64,000 nt of DNA. Origin: Cellulomonas edaphi (GTDB taxonomy: Bacteria > Actinomycetota > Actinomycetes > Actinomycetales > Cellulomonadaceae). Under the pieces are notes generated by a model. The model was not told where the DNA came from. It saw only the letters and a program-made list of their open reading frames with translations, and ran no database searches. The DNA lies in contig NZ_JAUCGR010000001.1 in assembly GCF_030362815.1 (NCBI RefSeq), positions 674,024 to 738,023 on the forward strand, read 5' to 3'. Of this stretch, positions 25,414-37,335 are shown in pieces. The position numbers and the translations under genes were made by a program. Every line of letters begins with the position of its first letter. Positions within the stretch are counted from its first letter, which is position 1.

Positions 25414-26352
25414 TCAGGCCGGGAGCGTGAAGGTGGGCTCGTCGTCGATGCTCGCGGGCGGGACCCGAGTGACCAGGCCGTCAGCCTCGAGCGACTCCAG
25501 GCAGCGGGTCCGCTGCGCGGCGTCCGGCCAGACCGCGTCGACGGCGTGCAGGGGCACCGGGTGCAGCGCGTCGCGCAGCAGGGCCATGATGCGTCCGCGG
25601 ACCTGCCGGTCCGTCCCCGCCCAGGCCTGCGTGCGGCGCCGGCCGGGGTGGTCGTCGGCCGGACGGCCCCGGGCGAGCCACGCGCACGACGAGGCCACCG
25701 GGCAGACCTCGCACCGCGGCGAGCGTGCCGTGCACACCAGTGCGCCCAGCTCCATCGAGGCGGCCGCCCAGCGCGCCGCCGCCACGTCGTCCGCGGGGAC
25801 CAGAGCGGCCGCGTCCCGGACCTCGCCCGCCGTCAGGGAGGGCGCGGGAAGGGCGGCCCCGGCCACCACGCGCGCCAGCACGCGGCGCACGTTGGTGTCG
25901 AGCACCACCGACCGTCGCCCGAACGCGAAGGCCCGCACCGCCGCCGCCGTGTACGCACCGATGCCGGGCAGCGCCAGGAGCGCCTCCTCGTCGTCGGGGA
26001 CGCGGCCCCCGTGCCGGGCGACGATCGCTCGCGCGCACTCCTGGAGCCGTAGCGCGCGGCGCGGGTAGCCCAGGCGGTCCCAGGCGCGCAGCACGTCGGC
26101 GGTCGACGCCGCGGCGAGGTCCGCCGGCGTGGGCCATGCGGCCATCCAGGCTCGCCACGCGGGCTCGACGCGCACCACGGGCGTCTGCTGGAGCATGACC
26201 TCGCTGACCAGCACGCCCCACGGGCTGCGGTCCGCCGCGCGCCAGGGCAGGTCCCGCGCCGACTCCTCGAACCACGCCACGACCCGCTCGACCAGCGGCG
26301 CGGCCTCCGCAGGGTGGGCCGCTGCCGCCGCGACGCGGGCTCTCGGCGTCAC
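25414..26352 (-). CDS. mutY: A/G-specific adenine glycosylase
   Basis: A 312-residue HhH-GPD glycosylase that removes adenine mispaired with 8-oxoguanine. Catalytic E51 lies in SEVMLQQTP and D152 in VLDTNVRRVL, after the hairpin LPGIGAYTAAAV (about 128-139). The [4Fe-4S] cluster cysteines are C207, C214, C217 and C223 with the expected X6-X2-X5 spacing. The C-terminal MutT-like recognition domain is short, as in other actinobacterial MutY proteins. The GTG at 26352 overlaps the stop of the DyP peroxidase gene (GTGA), so this repair enzyme is translationally coupled to exported oxidative-metabolism genes. Confidence 0.94.
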   Translation of the reverse strand: MTPRARVAAAAAHPAEAAPLVERVVAWFEESARDLPWRAADRSPWGVLVSEVMLQQTPVVRVEPAWRAWMAAWPTPADLAAASTADVLRAWDRLGYPRRALRLQECARAIVARHGGRVPDDEEALLALPGIGAYTAAAVRAFAFGRRSVVLDTNVRRVLARVVAGAALPAPSLTAGEVRDAAALVPADDVAAARWAAASMELGALVCTARSPRCEVCPVASSCAWLARGRPADDHPGRRRTQAWAGTDRQVRGRIMALLRDALHPVPLHAVDAVWPDAAQRTRCLESLEADGLVTRVPPASIDDEPTFTLPA

Positions 26353-27500
26353 GTGAACAGGGGGGAACCGAGCGGACGGGTGCGGGAGAAGCCCGGCAGC
26401 ACCAGGAAGCTGCCGCTCGCCGTCGCGGTGGCGTACGTCATGAGGTCGTCGACCTCGTCGAGGCGCAGCTGGGTGCGCACGAAGGCGTCCAGGTCGCGCG
26501 CGAAGCAGACGAAGAGCAGGCCCGCGTCGTCGACGCCCGACGTCGGGTCGGGACCCCGGTCGAACGCGTAGCCCCGGCGCAGCATGAGCGCGCTGCCGGT
26601 GAACGACGGGTGGGCCGCCCGCGCGTGGGCACGCGCGGGCACCAGGTACTCGCCCTCGGGGGTCTTGGCCTGCAGGTCCACCTGCGTGCGGGGTCCGCCG
26701 CCGGACAGCGGCCGGCCGTCGGCGTGACGCCCGATGACGCCGTCGCGGGCGGGCACGTCCAGGGCCGTGAACGCGCGCCGGTCGAGCCGCAGCCGGCGCA
26801 GCACGCACACCGTCGCACCGGCGAGCGGGCCCGACGTGATCCACACGTTCTCGTCGAGCTCGTCCTGGCCCTCGGGCACGATGATGCCGTCGAGGTAGCC
26901 GAGCGGGTTGCGCGCGACCGTGCCCTCCCCGGCGGCGCGGAACCCGTGCTCGGCCCAGAGCGGCACCAGCGTCGGGACCGCCTGGAGCAGGTGGTCCAGC
27001 GCGGGGCGCAGCGCACCGGCGTCGCTCGAGGCGAGCGCGACGAGCAGGTCGCCGTCGCGGCGGTCGGCGGCGATCGCGTCGTCGCGGGCGAAGGACGGCA
27101 TGGGCGTCGCGCCGGGGAGCGACGGGTCGATGGCGCGCAGCGGTCTCGGTCCGAGGCCGACGTGCACCGTGAGGTCGCCGGGTCCGTCGGGCAGGGTCGG
27201 GTTCGGCGTCTGGCTCGGGCCGTCGAGCAGGGCGAGGATCGCCGAGCCGAGCGCGGCCAGGTCGCGCTGCAGCCTCGAGGTGTCGGGCACGGCGAAGACC
27301 GCGTGCAGCGCGTTGCGCTGCGGCGTGGCCGGCCGCGCGACGCCCGCCTGCGTGCGCCCCGCCGCCGAGAGTCGCCGGCCGGTGGGCTCCGGCGTCGCCT
27401 GGTCGATCGCCGCCGCGGCTCCGGCGGCGGCGAGCGTCGCCCCGGCGACGAGCGCACCACCGCCCAGCAGCAGCGAGCGCCGGCTCAGCTCGGGGCTCAC
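26349..27500 (-). CDS. Tat-exported DyP-type haem peroxidase
   Basis: A 383-residue dye-decolorizing peroxidase. The N terminus has a twin-arginine signal (SRRSLLLGGG) and an Ala-rich hydrophobic core to about residue 32, so haem loading in the cytoplasm and Tat export are expected. The DyP motif appears as GYLDG (201-205, catalytic D204), the proximal haem ligand is probably H297 in RAAHPSF, and the distal Arg lies in LMLRRGYAFD. EfeB of iron-uptake operons is a close family relative, but no EfeU or EfeO is encoded here. It is preceded by two lipoprotein genes and followed by mutY, each joined by a four-base overlap. Substrate unknown. Confidence 0.9.
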   Translation of the reverse strand: MSPELSRRSLLLGGGALVAGATLAAAGAAAAIDQATPEPTGRRLSAAGRTQAGVARPATPQRNALHAVFAVPDTSRLQRDLAALGSAILALLDGPSQTPNPTLPDGPGDLTVHVGLGPRPLRAIDPSLPGATPMPSFARDDAIAADRRDGDLLVALASSDAGALRPALDHLLQAVPTLVPLWAEHGFRAAGEGTVARNPLGYLDGIIVPEGQDELDENVWITSGPLAGATVCVLRRLRLDRRAFTALDVPARDGVIGRHADGRPLSGGGPRTQVDLQAKTPEGEYLVPARAHARAAHPSFTGSALMLRRGYAFDRGPDPTSGVDDAGLLFVCFARDLDAFVRTQLRLDEVDDLMTYATATASGSFLVLPGFSRTRPLGSPLFT

Positions 27501-28165
27501 GAGCCCTCCGCCGGGACCAGGGCGTCCAGCCGGCTCGGGTCGAGCGAGTCGCCGAGGTCGATGGTCACCCACTCGCCGCCCACCAGCACCTCGGCCCGTC
27601 GCAGCAGCCCGTCGCCGTCCACCCAGTAGCGCGCGTTGCCCGCGCTGGTGGCCGTGAACACGTCGACGGGCGCCCCCTGCACCTCGTCCGAGCGCAGCCA
27701 CCGAGCGCCGCCCTGCTGGAGCAGCAGCGGGTTCTCCGGGCGGTCCGAGCCGAGGTCGAGCAGCACCAGCAGCAGCGCGTGCTCGGCCGACGCCGAGGCG
27801 TCGAGCGGCGAACGCTGCGCGGACGCGAGCTCCGCTGGCGGGGGCAGCGGTGCGGTGGCGGCTGCTGCCGGCGCGAGCGCCGCCGACTCCCCGTCCCAGG
27901 TGAGCAGGCTCGGGGCCGCGCCCTCCTGGTCGAGGCTGGCGTAGCCCACGTGGTCGACGAAGTCGACCCAGCCGTCGAGGTGCACCGGGCCCTGCGCGTC
28001 CTCGGTGGACGCGGCGACGACGCGCGCGCCCGCGTCGTAGTTGCGGAACCGCACCTGCGCGAGGGTCTGTGCCTCCTCGGACGTCACGGGGCGCGCCTCG
28101 TCGCCCCCGCTGCCGCACGCGCCGAGCAGCCCGGCGGCGAGGAGGGTGACCAGGACGCGCCTCAT
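27497..28165 (-). CDS. conserved lipoprotein of unknown function
   Basis: A 222-residue predicted lipoprotein with lipobox LLGACGSGG (C17). I do not recognise the family with certainty. The region from about 35 onward alternates beta-strand-like stretches (ARVVAASTEDAQGPVHLDGW, ARYWVDGDGLLRRAEVLVGG) in a pattern reminiscent of LppX/LprG-like lipoproteins. Both ends overlap neighbours by four bases: ATGA with the beta-helix lipoprotein upstream and GTGA with the DyP peroxidase downstream. The three exported products therefore come from one coupled message and probably act together in the envelope. Confidence 0.8.
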   Translation of the reverse strand: MRRVLVTLLAAGLLGACGSGGDEARPVTSEEAQTLAQVRFRNYDAGARVVAASTEDAQGPVHLDGWVDFVDHVGYASLDQEGAAPSLLTWDGESAALAPAAAATAPLPPPAELASAQRSPLDASASAEHALLLVLLDLGSDRPENPLLLQQGGARWLRSDEVQGAPVDVFTATSAGNARYWVDGDGLLRRAEVLVGGEWVTIDLGDSLDPSRLDALVPAEGS

Positions 28166-29463
28166 GCGGTCCCCGACATCGCGGCGAGGAAGTCCGCGGG
28201 GGGCACCGGGAAGCCGGCCGGGTCCGGCATGGTCACCCGTGCGGGCAGGGGGGCCGCCTGGCCGGTCCACGCGCCCATGTCGGGCTGGGCGACCGGCGAC
28301 GCGACGCGCAGGAAGCTGGTGCCGCGCGGGACGCTCGTGCCCTCCAGCGGGGCGGCGGGCTGTGCTGCCGTGCCGGGGCAGGGCGCCAGGAGGTCCGCGG
28401 GCGACGTGGTGGGCGTCCCGTCGGCGCAGTTGCCGGCGGCGGGCGCGCGCGTCGCCGAGGTGTTGGCGAGGTCCACGCCGTTGCCCTCGAAGGCGTTGCC
28501 CGTGAAGGCGTTGGACGCCGCGGCGAGGTCCTCGGTGTTGGCGAGCTGGACGCCCGCGACGGGGTTGCCGCTGATCCGGTTGCGGGTGAGCGCGTTCTCG
28601 ATGCCGCCGCTGATGCCCAGGCCGAGCCCGAACGAGCCGCTGGCCTGGGCGGGCGAGTCCGGCTCGGCGTTGTCCGCGAGCAGGTTGCCCACCACGGTGT
28701 TGGCGCGCTGCGGGGTGAACGCCTCCTGGTAGTTCGAGATCAGCGTCATGCCGACGCGATTTCCCGAGAACCTGTTCCCGGCGATCATCACCGAGTCGGA
28801 CGCGTTGGCATTCTCGAACCCGACGGCATTTCTTTCCGCGACATTTCCGGTCACGAGGATCCCGCATTGTCGGCACTGGCCCACGTAGAAACCGCTGTCC
28901 GCCGACCCCGACGCGTAGGAGTCCTGGATGACGCCGTCGTGGGCGTCGAACGCGTAGATCCCGTAGAGGCCGTTGTTGGCAGCGGTCACGTGGTCGATCG
29001 AGAACCGGCGGACGGGCGGGAACTTGTCCGGGTCGAGCCGGGTGTAGCCGTCGCCGTTGTGCGCCGACGGGCCGTTCTCGTCGTGCAGGCCCGTCACGAG
29101 CACGCCGTAGAACGTGGTCTCGCGCACCGTGAGGTTCTCGATCCGGGCACCGTCCGCCGTCGCGACGATGCCGTACGGCCGCTTCCCCTCCCCGGTGATG
29201 ACCGTCGCATTGCGGTCCTCGCCGCGGATCGTCACGTCCGTGGTGCTCAGCAGCACCTGCTCGGGGTAGGTCCCGGCGGCGACGAGCACGGTCCCACCGG
29301 GAGCGACGCGCTCGACGGCGTCCGTGATGGTCGCTGCGTCCGCGGGCACGCGGACAAGCTCCTGGCTCCCCTGCGAGGAGCTGCACGCACCCGCCGACAG
29401 CGCCGCGACCGCACCGAGGACCACGGCGAGCGTGGTCGGGATCAGGCGGGGGCGGGGGCGCAC
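28162..29463 (-). CDS. right-handed parallel beta-helix lipoprotein
   Basis: A 433-residue lipoprotein (lipobox near [10 protein letters not shown]27) with a NosD/pectate-lyase-like parallel beta-helix. Successive coils show the repeating pattern seen in [88 protein letters not shown] and [22 protein letters not shown] pair near residue 200 could bind metal or form a disulfide. The C terminus (from about 345) is Pro/Ala-rich. Parallel beta-helices of this sort bind or cut polysaccharides, but no lyase catalytic set is visible. GTG at 29463 is the start. First gene of the coupled beta-helix/lipoprotein/DyP/MutY cluster. Confidence 0.88.
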
Positions 29464-29696
29464 GGGGTGAGTCTAGGTGGCCGCTCCGGGGCAGCCGCGA
29501 GGCGCTGGTCACACTCCGTCGGGTGATTGTGATGGGCCGGATGGGCGGTACCACCCAGGCACATCGGACAGCCTCCGGGCGGGAAATTCGCCGCGTGATT
29601 GGCTTTCGCCCCGACCGCCGTTCGCGACCGCGCCCAAAATGGGCGAATTCGCACAAAGGGCTCCTCGACGGCCCATCGATAAAGGGATCTCGCCTC

Positions 29697-32600
29697 GTGC
29701 ACCTGAATGTCATCCGACCCGCCCGCCGAGCCGTCTCGGGCGTGACCGTCGCGGCTCTGCTCGCGACGGGGCTCGTCGCCGGCGCGAGCACGGCGAGCGC
29801 CGCGACCGACACGGTGGGTGGCCGGGTGTACCGGGACTTCAACGGCAACGGCGCGTACGACACTGTCGTGGCCGTCGGCGTCGCGAAGGACGTGGGCCTG
29901 CCCGGCGTCGACGTCGTCGTCACGGACGGCAGAGGCGCGAGCACCACCGTCCAGACCGGGCCGACCGGGCAGTGGACCGCGGACGTCACCTCGCTGACCG
30001 GTCCACGGTTCCGGGTGCAGCTCGAGACCCCGGACGCGTTGGTGACCTCGGCGGTGGGTTCGGCCAACCGCAGCTCGGTGCAGTTCGTCGAGGCGGGCGC
30101 CACGGACGTCGACTACGGCGTCAACGTCCCGGCCGACCACACGCAGGACCACGTCCCGCTGGTGACGACGATCCAGTACGCGGGCACCCGCGCAGGGGCC
30201 GATGTCAAGGACCTGGCGGCGGTCACCGCGACCCCGTGGGACGTGGCGCGCAACGACTCGGGCGCCAACGACTACTCGCGGTTCGCCGCGCGGACCACGA
30301 TCGCCACCTACGGGCAGGTCGGCTCCGTCTGGTCCACCGCGTACTCGGGGGTCACCGACGACCTGTATGTCTCGGCCACCTACAAGCGCCACGCGGACCT
30401 CGGGCCCGGTGGCCTGGGGGCGATCTACCGCTTCGCCGACCTCACCGCCGACGACGGCACGGTCCGCACCACGCCCGCGATGAGCACGATCGACGTGACG
30501 ACGCTCCGCGACCAGGACGGCAACCTCATCGACGTGGGGACGGCCGCACGGCCGGCGCTCGGCTCGTCGTCGAGCCTCGCGCCGGACGCCGACGCCTTCG
30601 CGAAGGCCGCCAAGGTGGGCATCGGCGGCATCTCGCTGAACGCCCGCGGGACCGTGCTCTACTTCGTCAACCTGCGTGACGCGCAGCTGTACGCGGTCGA
30701 CCTCACCGCGACCCCGCGCACGGCGCTGCGCGTGGGCTCGGGAGCGGGTGCGGGGGAGCAGCCCTGGGCGCTCTCGGTGCGCGGCGGCAAGGTCTACGTC
30801 GGGTCGACCGACACCGGCGCCGTGGCCGGCCAGCCGGCGGGCACTGCCGGCCTGCGCGCCCACGTCCGCGTCGCGTCCGAGGCCGCGGTGCTGGCGGGGT
30901 CGCCCGTGTGGACCTCGGTCGTCAAGAACGGTGACGGCACCGACGGCGTGGCCCTCGGCTACACCAAGGGCAACCCGATCTCGGGCTGGTCCGGCCGAGG
31001 GACGTACTGGGCCGACACCAAGCCGCAGGTGAAGCGGTGGAACACGTGGTCCGACACGTGGACTTTCGCGGGTGGGGCGGTCGGCTTCGCCGCTCCGGAC
31101 GCCTCCGGCGCGGCCGGCTGGGGGCCGGTGCACGCCTACCCCCAGGCCGTGCTCACCGACCTCACGTTCGACCAGGACGGCTTCCTGATCCTCAGCCTCG
31201 CGGACCGCACCGCGATCCAGGGCGGCAACCGCAACAGCGCGTCCGACCCCGCGGTCACCGGCACGTTCGAGTCGGTCTCGGCGGGCGACATGCTCATCGC
31301 CGGTGCGACGGACGTGGCGCACACCCAGTTCCGGGCGGAGTCCAACGGCTCGGTCACGGGGTACAACTACCTCGGTGCGAGCGTCGTGCGCTCGGGGCAG
31401 GTCGGCAACGGGCAGGGCCCCGGGGGCGGCGAGTTCTACGCCGACCAGCAGAACCTCGGGACGGGTGCCACGCACTACGAGACCACGCTGGGCAGCGCGG
31501 TCTCCTTCCCGGGCGCGCCGCAGCCCGTGCTCGCCACGGTGTTCGACCCCCTCGGCGGCATCCGGCTCGCGGGCCTCATGTGGTTCAACGGGACCACCGG
31601 CGCCGCGGTGCGCGGCTACGAGCACACGCTCGACACCGCGCAGACGTCGGGCAGCCGCACGTTCCAGAAGGGCGGCGGGCTGGGCGCCATCGAGGCGCTC
31701 GCCGGTGAGGCACCGGTGGAGATCGGCAACCGCGTGTGGTTCGACGCGGACCAGGACGGCATCCAGGACGCCGACGAGCCGGCCGTCGCCGGTGTCGTCG
31801 TCGGGCTCGTCGACCAGGGCGGGACCACGGTCGCGACCAGGACCACCGACGCGTCGGGCGAGTACTACTTCCGCTCGGACACCGACGGCTTCGACGCCTT
31901 CGGCGCCTACACCCTCACGTTCACGCGGCCGAGCACGGGCTCGTGGTCCGGCGGCGCGTTCGGCGACGTGCCGTGGAGCAGGCTGAGCTTCACGACGCAG
32001 GACGCCGGCAGCGACGACACCGTGGACTCCGACGCGGACACGACCGGGACGCTCACGTACACCGTGCGCGGGCCGGGCGAGAACGACCACACGCTCGACG
32101 TCGGCCTGGTCGCCGACGCCTCCTTCACCGTCGAGAAGGCCATCAGCCCGGACGGCGGCACCGCGGACCCCGGCGCGACCTTCGCCATGCACGTGCAGGC
32201 GACCAGCTTCCGCGGCGAGCCGCTGAGCCTGCCGGCCGGTGACACCGACTTCGACGTGAGCGTGGGCTCGGGGAACGGCCACACCGTGAGCGTGCCGCTC
32301 GGGACGCGCGTGGAGGTGACCGAGACGACCACGACCGGCCTGCGCTCGCCGGCCACGGTGGACCCCGCGGGCTCGTTCGCCGTGCTCAGCACGGGACAGC
32401 CGCAGCTCGTCACCGTGACCAACACGCTCGTGGAGCCGGGCACCTTCTCGGTCCACAAGAGCGTCACGGGCCCCGGGGCCGCCTACGTCCCCGCGGGGAC
32501 GGGTTTCACGGTGGAGTACAGCACCGACGCGGGCAGCACGTGGAAGACGCTGACCGTCGCGGACGGCGCCACGGTCACCTCTCCCGAGCTGCCGGCCGGC

Positions 32601-35288
32601 AGCACCGTGCTGGTGCGCGAGGCCCCGCGCCCCGCGGTCACGGGTGTGGTCTGGGGCGCGGCGACGTGGACCATCGGCTCCGCCACCTCGACGGGCACGC
32701 AGTCCGTGACGATCGGCGACGGCACGGACATCGGCCTCGCGCTGGAGAACCCGACGACGCTCGTGTCGAGCGGCTTCTCCGTGACCAAGGACGTCGCGGG
32801 CGCGGCGGCGGGCTCGGTGCCCGACGACTTCGCCTTCACGGTGCACTACGCGTACGTCGACGCTGCCGGCGCCGACGTCACGGGCGACCTCGAGCTGAGC
32901 AAGTCCGCCCCGACCGACGGCGTGGCGGGCGTGCCGTTCGGCACGAGCGTGACGCTCTCGGAGTCGACCCCGACCGGCGCACCCGCCGACGTGCGGTGGG
33001 GCGCGCCCGGCTGGGCGGGGACCGGTGTGACCGACAACGGCGACGGGTCGGCGACGCTGGTCGTCGGTGCGAGCACCGCTGCCGTGACGCTCACCAACCC
33101 CACGACGCAGCGGACCGGCGGCTTCGACATCACCAAGCGCGTGACCGGCGCGGCCAGCGGCTCGGCACCGGACGCCGACTACACGGTGCACTACGCGTAC
33201 GGCACGACGTCGGGCACGTTGAGCATGGCGGCCGACGAGACCGACGGCGTCACCGGGATCCCCGCGGGCACCGAGGTGCTGCTGTGGGAGGGCACGCGCC
33301 CCGCCGGTGCACCGGACCTCTCCTGGGGCACGCCCGTGTGGGGCGGCGCCGGGGTCACGGACAACGGCGACGGCACGGCGACGCTCGTCGTGGGCGACGG
33401 CGTGGTCGCGGACGTCGAGCTGACCAACCCGACCACGCAGCTGGTGGGCGGCTTCTCGGTGACCAAGGCGGTCACCGGTGACGCATCCGCGTCGGTGCCC
33501 CCGACCTTCCAGTTCACCGTGCGCTACGCACTGGACGGCGTCGACCAGCCGCCGATCACGCTCACCACGGCCGACCCCACCCGTGCGTTCGCCGGCCTTC
33601 CCCGCGGCGCCGTCGTGACGCTCGACGAGGTGAGCCCCACGGGAGCGCCCGCCGACGTGCGGTGGGGGAACCCGGTCTGGAGCGGCACGGGAGTGACCGT
33701 CCAGGGCGACGGCTCTGCGTCGTTCGTGGTGGGTGACCAGGCCGTCGCCGTGACGCTGACGAACCCGACCGCGCGTGTGCTCGGCTCGTTCGCGGTGACC
33801 AAGCGCGTCGTCGGCGAGGGCCGTCGCGTGCTCGAGGGCGACCCCGCCTTCTCGGTGACCTACAGCCACCCCGGCGCGCAGCCTGAGACGATCACGGTGC
33901 ACGACGGCGAGCGCTGGGCCTCGCCGCAGCTGCCCGCCGGCACGGTGGTCACGCTCAGCGAGGCCCGCCCCCTCGTCGGCCTGCCGGCCGGCGCCACGTG
34001 GGGCACGCCGCGCTTCCTCGTGGGCGGCGTCGAGGTCGACAGTGTGACGATCGGCGACGGCACCACCGTCGAGGTCACGCTCGAGAACCCGACCGCGGTC
34101 ACGCCGCTGGTCGACATCGAGAAGGGTGACGGCGTCGGCAGCACCATCACGCACGACGCCGACACGATGGCCGACGGCGAGGTCTACGCGCCCGGCGAGC
34201 GGCGCCGGGTGGTGCTCACCGTCGCCAACACGGGCACCGAGCGTCTGCGCGACGTCGTCCTGCGTGACAGCACGGTCTCCGGCGCCGACGTCACGGCGAT
34301 CCGCTGGACGTTCCCCGACGGCAGCACGGCGCTGGCGGATCGAGTGAGCGGCGCCTGGGAGGCCCGCTGGGAGGCGACCTTCGACGGCAGCACCTCCTTC
34401 GCCCCGGGTGCGGTGATCACCGGGATCGCCACGCTGACGGTGCGGGCCGGCGACGCGCCGCACGTGGACCGTGCGCGCGTGGACGCGGTCGGTGTCGCGA
34501 GCGGCACGCGCGTCGACGACAGGGACGACTACCACGCGTTCACGGGCGCCATCCAGGTGATCAAGTACGACGGGTCGCACGCCGACCCGGTGGTCCGGGA
34601 CGGCGGCGACTGGGTGATCCCCGCGAAGCCGCTCGTGGACCCGGCGCAGGACGCGAACGACGCGGCCCACGCCGTGCACCTGCCCGCCGGGGCGCCGAGC
34701 CCGGTGCGCTGGGTCGTCACCAACACGGGATCGACCACCCTGACGGACGTCGACCTCGTCGACGTGACCCGGGACGGCCCGGCGCTGACCGGGATCACCT
34801 GTGACCTGTCGGAGCTCGGCGGCCCCGCGACGTTCGCGCCGTCGCGCGGCACCTGGCACGGGCTCCTCCCGCCGTCCGCCTCGTTCTTCTGCACCGGCAC
34901 GCTGACGCTGGCCACCGGCGCGCACGCCGACACGGTGACCGCCACGGCGACGGTCGTGGTCCCGGCGGTCGACGCCGGCGGAGTCCCGACCGGTGCGCCG
35001 TCCCTGGGCGGGCGCGGTCGGCCGGTGGTGGCGACGCACGACGACGGCACCCCCGTGCGCGTCACGGACGCCGATCCGTTCCACGCGGTCGACGTCGTCG
35101 AGCCGACCGAGCGGCCGGGTGTGGACCCGACCGAGCCGACGCCCGGCGGCCCGGCACCGAAGCCCGTTCCGGACGACGAGTCGCTCGCGCGCACCGGCTC
35201 CGACGTCGCGCCGGCGCTCGGGGTGGCGCTGCTCGCGGTGCTGCTGGGTGGTCTCGCCGTCGGGGTCGCCCGGAGGCGTCGCTCCTGA
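29697..35288 (+). CDS. giant LARTG-anchored repeat surface protein
   Basis: An 1863-residue cell-surface protein. Order: signal peptide 1-36 (ending [10 protein letters not shown]); SdrD-B-like module about 38-125 ([15 protein letters not shown]); a 550-residue beta-rich, propeller-like region; a second SdrD-B/Cna-B-like module about 675-800 ([15 protein letters not shown]); six tandem DUF5979-like repeats of 105-116 residues (about 806-1471), each starting near F(S/D/A)(V/I)(T/H)K; two DUF11-like modules; and a C-terminal LARTG (1830-1834), membrane helix and RRRR tail. LAxTG is the class E sortase signal of high-GC actinobacteria. GTG at 29697 follows AAAGGGATC. Probably an adhesin or stalk protein; its ligand is unknown. 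It stands alone, divergent from the beta-helix cluster. Confidence 0.9.
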
Positions 35289-36146: not shown

Positions 36147-37226
36147 CTAGACGTACCGCTCCAGGATGCTCGACTCGGCGAGCCGGGACAGGCCCTCGCG
36201 CACCGCGCGCGCCCGCTGCTCGCCCACGCCGTCCACGGCCATGAGGTCGTCGATGCCGGCCGCGAGCAGCTTCTGGAGCCCGCCGAAGTGGGACACGAGA
36301 CGGTCGACGATGGCGCCGGGGAGGCGCGGGACCTTCGAGAGCAGGCGGTAGCCGCGCGGGCCCGCCGCCGCGTCGAGCGCGTCGCCGCCGCCGGGCAGCC
36401 CCAGCACGCGGGCGATGTGCGCGATGTCGAGCAGCTCCGTCGAGTCCAGCTCTGCGAGGGCCGCCTGCACGGAGTCGATGTCGCGGCGGCTGGTGTCCAC
36501 GTAGTCGCGGATGACGAGCTCGCGGTCGGAGCCGATGCCGCCCACCAGCTCGTCCAGCTGGAGCGTGAGGAGGCGGCCGTCGGTGCCGAGCTCGACGACG
36601 TAGCCCTCGATCTCCTCGGAGATGCGGCGCACCATCTCCAGCCGCTGCACCACCGCGGAGACGTCGCGCACCGTGACCAGGTCCTCGATCTCCAGCGCCG
36701 AGAGGGTGCCGCTGACCTCGTCGAGCCGCGACTTGTACCGCTCGAGGGTGGCGAGCGCCTGGTTGGCGCGGGACAGGATGGTGGTGGACCCCTCCAGCAC
36801 GTAGCGCTGGTCCCCGACGTACAGGGCGATGATCCGCATCGAGGCGGACACGGAGATGACCGGCAGGCCGGTCTGCTTGGCCACCCGCTCCGCGGTGCGG
36901 TGGCGGGTGCCGGACTCCGTCGTCTCGATGGTCACGTCCGGGAGCAGCTGCACGGCGGCGCGCACGATGCGGCTGATGTCCTGGTCGACCACCACCGCGC
37001 CGTCCATCTTGGCCAGCTCGCGCAGGCGCGTCGCCGAGAACTCCACGTCGAGCACGAACCCGCCCGAGCAGATGGACTCCACGGTCTTGTCGAAGCCGAG
37101 CACGATGAGCGCGCCCGTGCGGCCGCGCAGGATCCGCTCCAGGCCGTCGCGCAGCGCCCCGCCGGGTGCGACTGCGGCGAGCGTGGACCTCATGAGGTCG
37201 TCGGGGGCGTGCGGGGTGGACGGCAC
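36147..37226 (-). CDS. disA: DNA integrity scanning diadenylate cyclase DisA
   Basis: A 359-residue DisA, which makes cyclic di-AMP from two ATP and reports on DNA integrity. The N-terminal DAC domain has DGA at 75-77 ([11 protein letters not shown]) and RHR at 108-110 ([17 protein letters not shown]), both needed for ATP binding. A helical spine follows, then C-terminal helix-hairpin-helix DNA-binding motifs ([39 protein letters not shown]). GTG at 37226 gives the normal family length; an ATG 11 codons further in is a possible alternative, and neither has a strong ribosome binding site. In many actinobacteria disA adjoins radA; here radA is about 9 kb away. Confidence 0.96.
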
Positions 37227-37335
37227 GTGAGCATGGTAACGAGCGGCGACGGTGCGCGGACCCCGCGACCCGCCCTCGAGCCTGCACATCCACCCAGGGG
37301 CGCGCCGACGCGCGGCGATCACCTCGCCGATCCCG

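Follow-up and report, generated by a model that had tools for sequence, protein, structure and literature searches.

Four genes for exported proteins, encoding a beta-helix lipoprotein (A), a small lipoprotein (B), a DyP-type peroxidase (C) and a giant surface protein (D), occur together almost all-or-none and are clustered in shuffled orders. What the present analysis supports best is this linkage, with the four products taking part in a single process at the cell surface. Because the set is inherited in a nearly all-or-none manner across actinobacteria, it probably constitutes an undescribed cell-surface system. Our best model, to which we assign a probability of a little under 40%, casts D as a fibrillar adhesin, A and B as membrane-lipoprotein accessories and C as an enzyme that oxidizes or cross-links either D or the ligand of D.

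The window, a stretch of 64,000 nucleotides from Cellulomonas edaphi (NZ_JAUCGR010000001.1, positions 674,024 to 738,023), carries A, B and C as consecutive open reading frames on the minus strand. Gene A (28162-29463; 433 aa) encodes a right-handed parallel beta-helix lipoprotein with the lipobox LSAGAC, gene B (27497-28165; 222 aa) a small lipoprotein with the lipobox LLGAC, and gene C (26349-27500; 383 aa) a Tat-exported DyP-type haem peroxidase with the twin-arginine start SRRSLLLGG. Stop and start codons overlap by four bases on the minus strand both between A and B (ATGA, 28162-28165) and between B and C (GTGA, 27497-27500), which agrees with the preliminary description of an exported trio with overlapping genes. 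Since C overlaps the MutY-type glycosylase gene (25414-26352, minus strand) by four bases as well, overlap alone is no proof of shared function; it is conservation, not the overlap itself, that indicates a shared function of A, B and C. Gene D (29697-35288, plus strand; 1863 aa; alternative GTG start at 29523) is divergent from A. The trio is a real and conserved unit, co-transcribed in appearance, in support of the preliminary description. The view of the trio as the whole unit had missed D, the most informative partner, which lies outside the coordinates given there, and has to be extended to at least four genes.

A -10-like element, TAGACT (29470-29475, minus strand), lies 6 nt before the GTG start of A. 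TANACT is found 6-8 nt before the start of A in the window and in the related loci L001-L008, and TATGAT takes its place in L009. The position of this element suggests that the A-B-C mRNA may be leaderless. It was also the only element to emerge when a conserved operator between A and D was sought by alignment.

When bacterial and archaeal genomes were scanned with A, close homologues turned up in ten complete related loci (L001-L010). Carriers include Cellulomonas, Microbacterium, Pseudactinotalea, Occultella, Agromyces, Myceligenerans, Pseudoclavibacter and others. In each of these ten loci A, B and C are adjacent, in most of them with four-base overlaps at both the A/B and the B/C junction, so the expected conservation of the trio across actinobacteria was borne out: A-B-C stand in a row in 10/10 full-length loci. 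In L001-L009 and in most loci of the class sample, D adjoins all or part of the trio, in differing gene orders, and A, B, C and D are the only broadly conserved neighbours in the clusters. In the window and in L001-L008, A-B-C is divergent from D, and L009 has the order A-B-C-D. The orders D-A-B-C on a single strand (L057), D-B-A-C (L082, L085), C-B-D with A divergent (L052/L074, with C located in L038) and B-A divergent from D-C (L072) were also seen, as were alternating strands in L051 and L088. The latter locus is on plasmid pCLA1 of Streptomyces clavuligerus ATCC 27064, where all four genes lie within about 6 kb (NZ_CP027859.1, about 1570348-1576562); the table of the plasmid collection lists no gene at this region of pCLA1. 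In genus g46, B and C are beside D and A is far off (in genome G117, for example, 4.12 Mb vs 0.29 Mb), and A is nonetheless present in every genome despite this distance. Fusions of C with D or of A with D were not seen. A metagenome-assembled genome labelled Mycobacterium (L011) has an A gene of 66% identity at a contig end, possibly through binning contamination, and no viral copies of A were found.

The surroundings of the cluster are far less constant. Among the related loci compared, the nearest relative, L001, a Cellulomonas locus, is alone in having mutY downstream of C, and the disA/mutY flanks of the window (disA at 36147-37289, minus strand, on the other flank of the module) are likewise common to L001 only, the other loci having unrelated surroundings. 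The linkage of A, B, C and D is therefore not leftover synteny. The module is placed between the mutY-type gene and disA, a context shared by L001 alone, so that relatives without the module may have an empty disA-mutY site.

Co-occurrence extends to genomes sampled more widely. In the class sample (n = 297), A was found in 23 genomes (E below 1e-100), each of them with B, and D in 22 of these 23, the exception being G171, where B is at a contig end. C was detected in 21 genomes at E<=1e-80, or in 23 when two weaker matches at the locus are counted, and B in 26/297. Every genome of the class sample with a strong match to A, C or D also had B (exceptions, 0/297). Pairwise Fisher tests over the 297 genomes gave p values of 8e-28 to 2e-32, which overstate independence since about half of the positives belong to one genus. 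B and D were found in the identical 8/198 genomes of the order sample, five of them from a family outside the positives of the class sample, and in the identical 2/198 genomes of the phylum sample; the profile of D was partly built from neighbours of B, and the loci behind profiles A1 and A3 were independent. B-like matches without other module genes were found in G093 and, weakly, in G082 and G176.

D has a signal peptide, an Ig-like and beta-propeller-like head, an SdrD_B domain, DUF5979 repeats and an LARTG sorting signal. The head (about aa 37-675; 29805-31720, plus strand) is the part conserved in the homologues of D. It was modelled as an Ig-like plus a propeller-like domain with only moderate confidence (mean pLDDT about 63), and the model matches SdrD/UafA B domains and various beta-propellers. 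On the same strand follow the SdrD_B domain (31719-32108), the DUF5979 stalk repeats (32445-34094), five with Lys, Glu and Asn at regular spacing, and the C-terminal sorting signal (35184-35285), composed of LARTG, a hydrophobic stretch and RRRRS. The Lys, Glu and Asn residues are predicted to form a CnaB-like isopeptide triad and the stalk to be of the isopeptide type; a published list of CnaB-like isopeptide domains includes DUF5979 (PMC12617251). Across the homologues, head and sorting signal are constant and the stalk varies, with SdrD_B repeats in L009 and a short form in L051 and L088. Having a signal peptide, stalk repeats and an LPxTG-like sorting signal, D has the architecture of sortase-anchored fibrillar adhesins, a class of which ligand binding would also be expected. 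Because of the propeller-like head, D was also considered as a radical copper oxidase matured like GlxA by DtpA, a candidate that was rejected, as D has two cysteines only and no conserved Tyr-Cys pair was seen. Some genomes (loci L081, L079, L065 and L063) contain two or three paralogues of D with additional SdrD_B repeats, or incomplete second copies of the module. In several families, clusters with D have large regulators of the LuxR type, with a GerE domain, beside them (L078, L082, L085, L045, L048, L049 and L079). None was detected beside the cluster of the window, and a regulator of this type is not a fixed extra gene.

C is recognized as a DyP peroxidase by the Pfam model Dyp_perox_C (E = 4e-20; 72.7 bits, cut-off 20) and by TIGR01413 (129.6 bits, cut-off 100.5). 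D204 of the GxxDG motif, H292, R308/R309 and the twin arginines are kept in at least 95% of 36 sequences; we take the GxxDG aspartate, the proximal histidine and the distal arginine (D204, H292 and R308/R309) to be the DyP catalytic residues. The closest relatives in the PDB are actinobacterial DyPs, namely 5jxu and SCO3963/DtpA.

In the model that we favour, D would be a fibrillar, wall-anchored adhesin whose head is held up by stalk repeats of the isopeptide type. A and B would be lipoproteins anchored at the outer face of the membrane, working on D or keeping C near D. C, exported in a folded state via Tat, would use peroxide to oxidize aromatic groups of D or of its ligand, and the surface fibre could thereby be hardened or covalently coupled. 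We infer oxidation or cross-linking of D or its ligand by C, with A and B positioning or servicing them, from the localization of the proteins, from the fact that C is a peroxidase and D has a stalk of the isopeptide type, and from the precedent of DtpA and GlxA, in which a Tat-exported DyP is needed for maturation of a surface enzyme (PMC4736821). Likewise presumed are a physical interaction among the proteins, D as the target of C, the chemistry of cross-linking and what A and B do. In its strictest form, the idea is improbable on present evidence: two lipoproteins would hold an exported peroxidase dedicated to the covalent oxidation or cross-linking of its own wall-anchored adhesin. If true, it would provide a bacterial counterpart of peroxidase-hardened extracellular matrices and an undescribed class of surface machine.

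The main rival to cross-linking is a role in metal or haem handling, to which we give perhaps one chance in five. Here C would oxidize or extract metal in the manner of DtpA or EfeB, with the NosD-like A and with B as chaperone or relay and D as surface receptor or recipient. A does match the Pfam models Beta_helix (E = 7e-21) and NosD (E = 3e-14), and all five of its cysteines are invariant at the 95% level in 28 A sequences, namely the lipobox C27, C197-x-x-C200, C346 and C362. The CxxC is consistent with such a role, although no metal ligand set is apparent in A beyond it. In genome G010, a distant homologue of A is fused to a cupredoxin and stands beside another cupredoxin and a sortase, and a DyP is found together with lipoproteins in the clusters of DtpA and EfeB (PMC4736821). 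However, A remains far below the cut-off of the NosD subfamily model TIGR04247 (50.8 bits, cut-off 300), C far below that of EfeB, and no metal transporter, Sco, ECuC, EfeU/EfeO or NosF/NosY/NosL gene is conserved in the clusters. The NosD-like metal role suggested in the preliminary description is thus left with indirect leads. At L076 (4957-8399), the order is sortase, Ig-like protein, cupredoxin and the cupredoxin-beta-helix fusion distantly related to A, a gene set from another family that is possibly the equivalent of the module for copper.

Against the EfeB equivalog model TIGR01412, C scores 154.7 bits (cut-off 428), and the positive control, L018, reaches 476.5. L018 is a true EfeB elsewhere in the genome (G000:C1:1246742-1247974, 476 bits) next to an EfeO-like gene, so that the genome has an Efe-type iron system of its own. 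Model cut-off and separate EfeB together rule out C as EfeB of an EfeUOB system, and this separate EfeB and the two cysteines of D also speak against metal or haem handling. EfeU and EfeO families are absent among the conserved neighbours of the cluster. The reported absence of EfeUO partners therefore holds locally and for partners of the module but not genome-wide, given the EfeB and EfeO-like gene at G000:C1:1246742.

In another explanation of about equal, low probability, A and B would serve D in its display, folding or quality control, B being like RseB or LolA, and C would protect against peroxide at the surface and not modify D. B has no sequence-level family match in Pfam, NCBIfam or the PDB; R39, R142, R179 and W181 are among its conserved residues. 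Its AlphaFold model (pLDDT 86.2) is a half-barrel with a helix, which with good confidence is predicted to be a fold of the LolA/LprG/LppX/RseB type; the top Foldseek matches are LprG, RseB, LppX and LolA (E 4e-5 to 1e-4; TM about 0.4-0.5). This resemblance agrees with a role for B in display. So does G493, from another class of the phylum, in which A-B with a four-base overlap and D persist and no DyP comparable to C is found. C is thus the most dispensable part of the module, and peroxidase action is not indispensable. A replacement enzyme for C was considered there and rejected, as the gene after A-B encodes a lamin-tail/GmrSD_C nuclease-like protein and not a redox enzyme. Against a merely protective C, the peroxidase is otherwise linked as tightly as A and D and is joined to A or B by a four-base overlap in many loci.

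Less probable still is outward oxidation, in which D anchors the cell to a plant or microbial polymer and C oxidizes lignin-like aromatics or those of glycans. In its favour, C is exported and retains the catalytic residues of a DyP, its nearest PDB relatives are actinobacterial, and Cellulomonas and Microbacterium are among the carriers. However, C is without a carbohydrate-binding domain, and A and B are predicted lipoproteins, hence membrane-bound rather than released. Lignin or glycan targeting, raised in the preliminary description, found no supporting evidence, and no polymer-degrading or carbohydrate-binding gene is conserved with the cluster. Little is known of what DyP peroxidases do in the cell, and lignin is commonly taken to be their target. 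When the distribution of a DyP follows that of a giant adhesin and two lipoproteins nearly genome for genome, a role at the cell surface is indicated instead.

That the four are neighbouring envelope genes without a common task is very improbable: four-base overlaps are common in GC-rich genomes and C overlaps mutY too, but a chance cluster was rejected because the genes are present or absent together across families, while their order and their flanking genes differ.

The individual folds are known, while the four-part combination matches no known system by the models used. Nor was a description of it found in the open-access literature, subscription journals being outside the search, and the locus keeps its place as a candidate undescribed system. 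The module provides the first context for an unnamed family of LolA-fold lipoproteins and for such SdrD_B surface proteins, and it offers a concrete gene set with named carriers such as Streptomyces clavuligerus ATCC 27064. With NosD and TIGR03805 proteins, A has the beta-helix superfamily and export in common, but it falls below both cut-offs (for TIGR03805, 71.3 bits, or 56.9 in the search of its own genome, against 141.5) and has its own CxxC and lipobox. NosF, NosY, NosZ, NosL or a cytochrome partner are not among the conserved neighbours of the cluster, and score and partners rule out membership of A in NosD maturation. The partner of TIGR03805 proteins is an exported dihaem cytochrome, and this would be a parallel to the pairing of beta-helix and haem protein seen here. 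EfeB of EfeUOB is also a Tat-exported DyP, and its equivalog model is the closest named NCBIfam model to C, which differs in its score, its neighbours and the separate EfeB of the genome. The predicted fold of B resembles LprG, LppX, LolA and RseB, of which LprG and LppX are also actinobacterial lipoproteins, but the likeness is one of TM-scores of only about 0.4-0.5, with no family match in sequence. D shares the SdrD_B domain, the CnaB-like DUF5979 stalk and the sorting signal with fibrillar adhesins of the SdrD/UafA/CnaB type (PMC8286594, PMC9210967, PMC12617251), whereas for its conserved propeller-like head with a near-constant DyP and two lipoproteins no description was found. The DtpA-Sco-ECuC cluster of Streptomyces lividans (PMC4736821) likewise encodes a Tat-exported DyP together with lipoproteins, and SCO3963 (DtpA) is one of the PDB entries that match C best. 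In contrast to that operon, the conserved neighbours of the module include no Sco, ECuC or copper-transporter gene, and the peroxidase is accompanied by a giant sortase-type protein and two lipoproteins, one a beta-helix and the other with a LolA fold.
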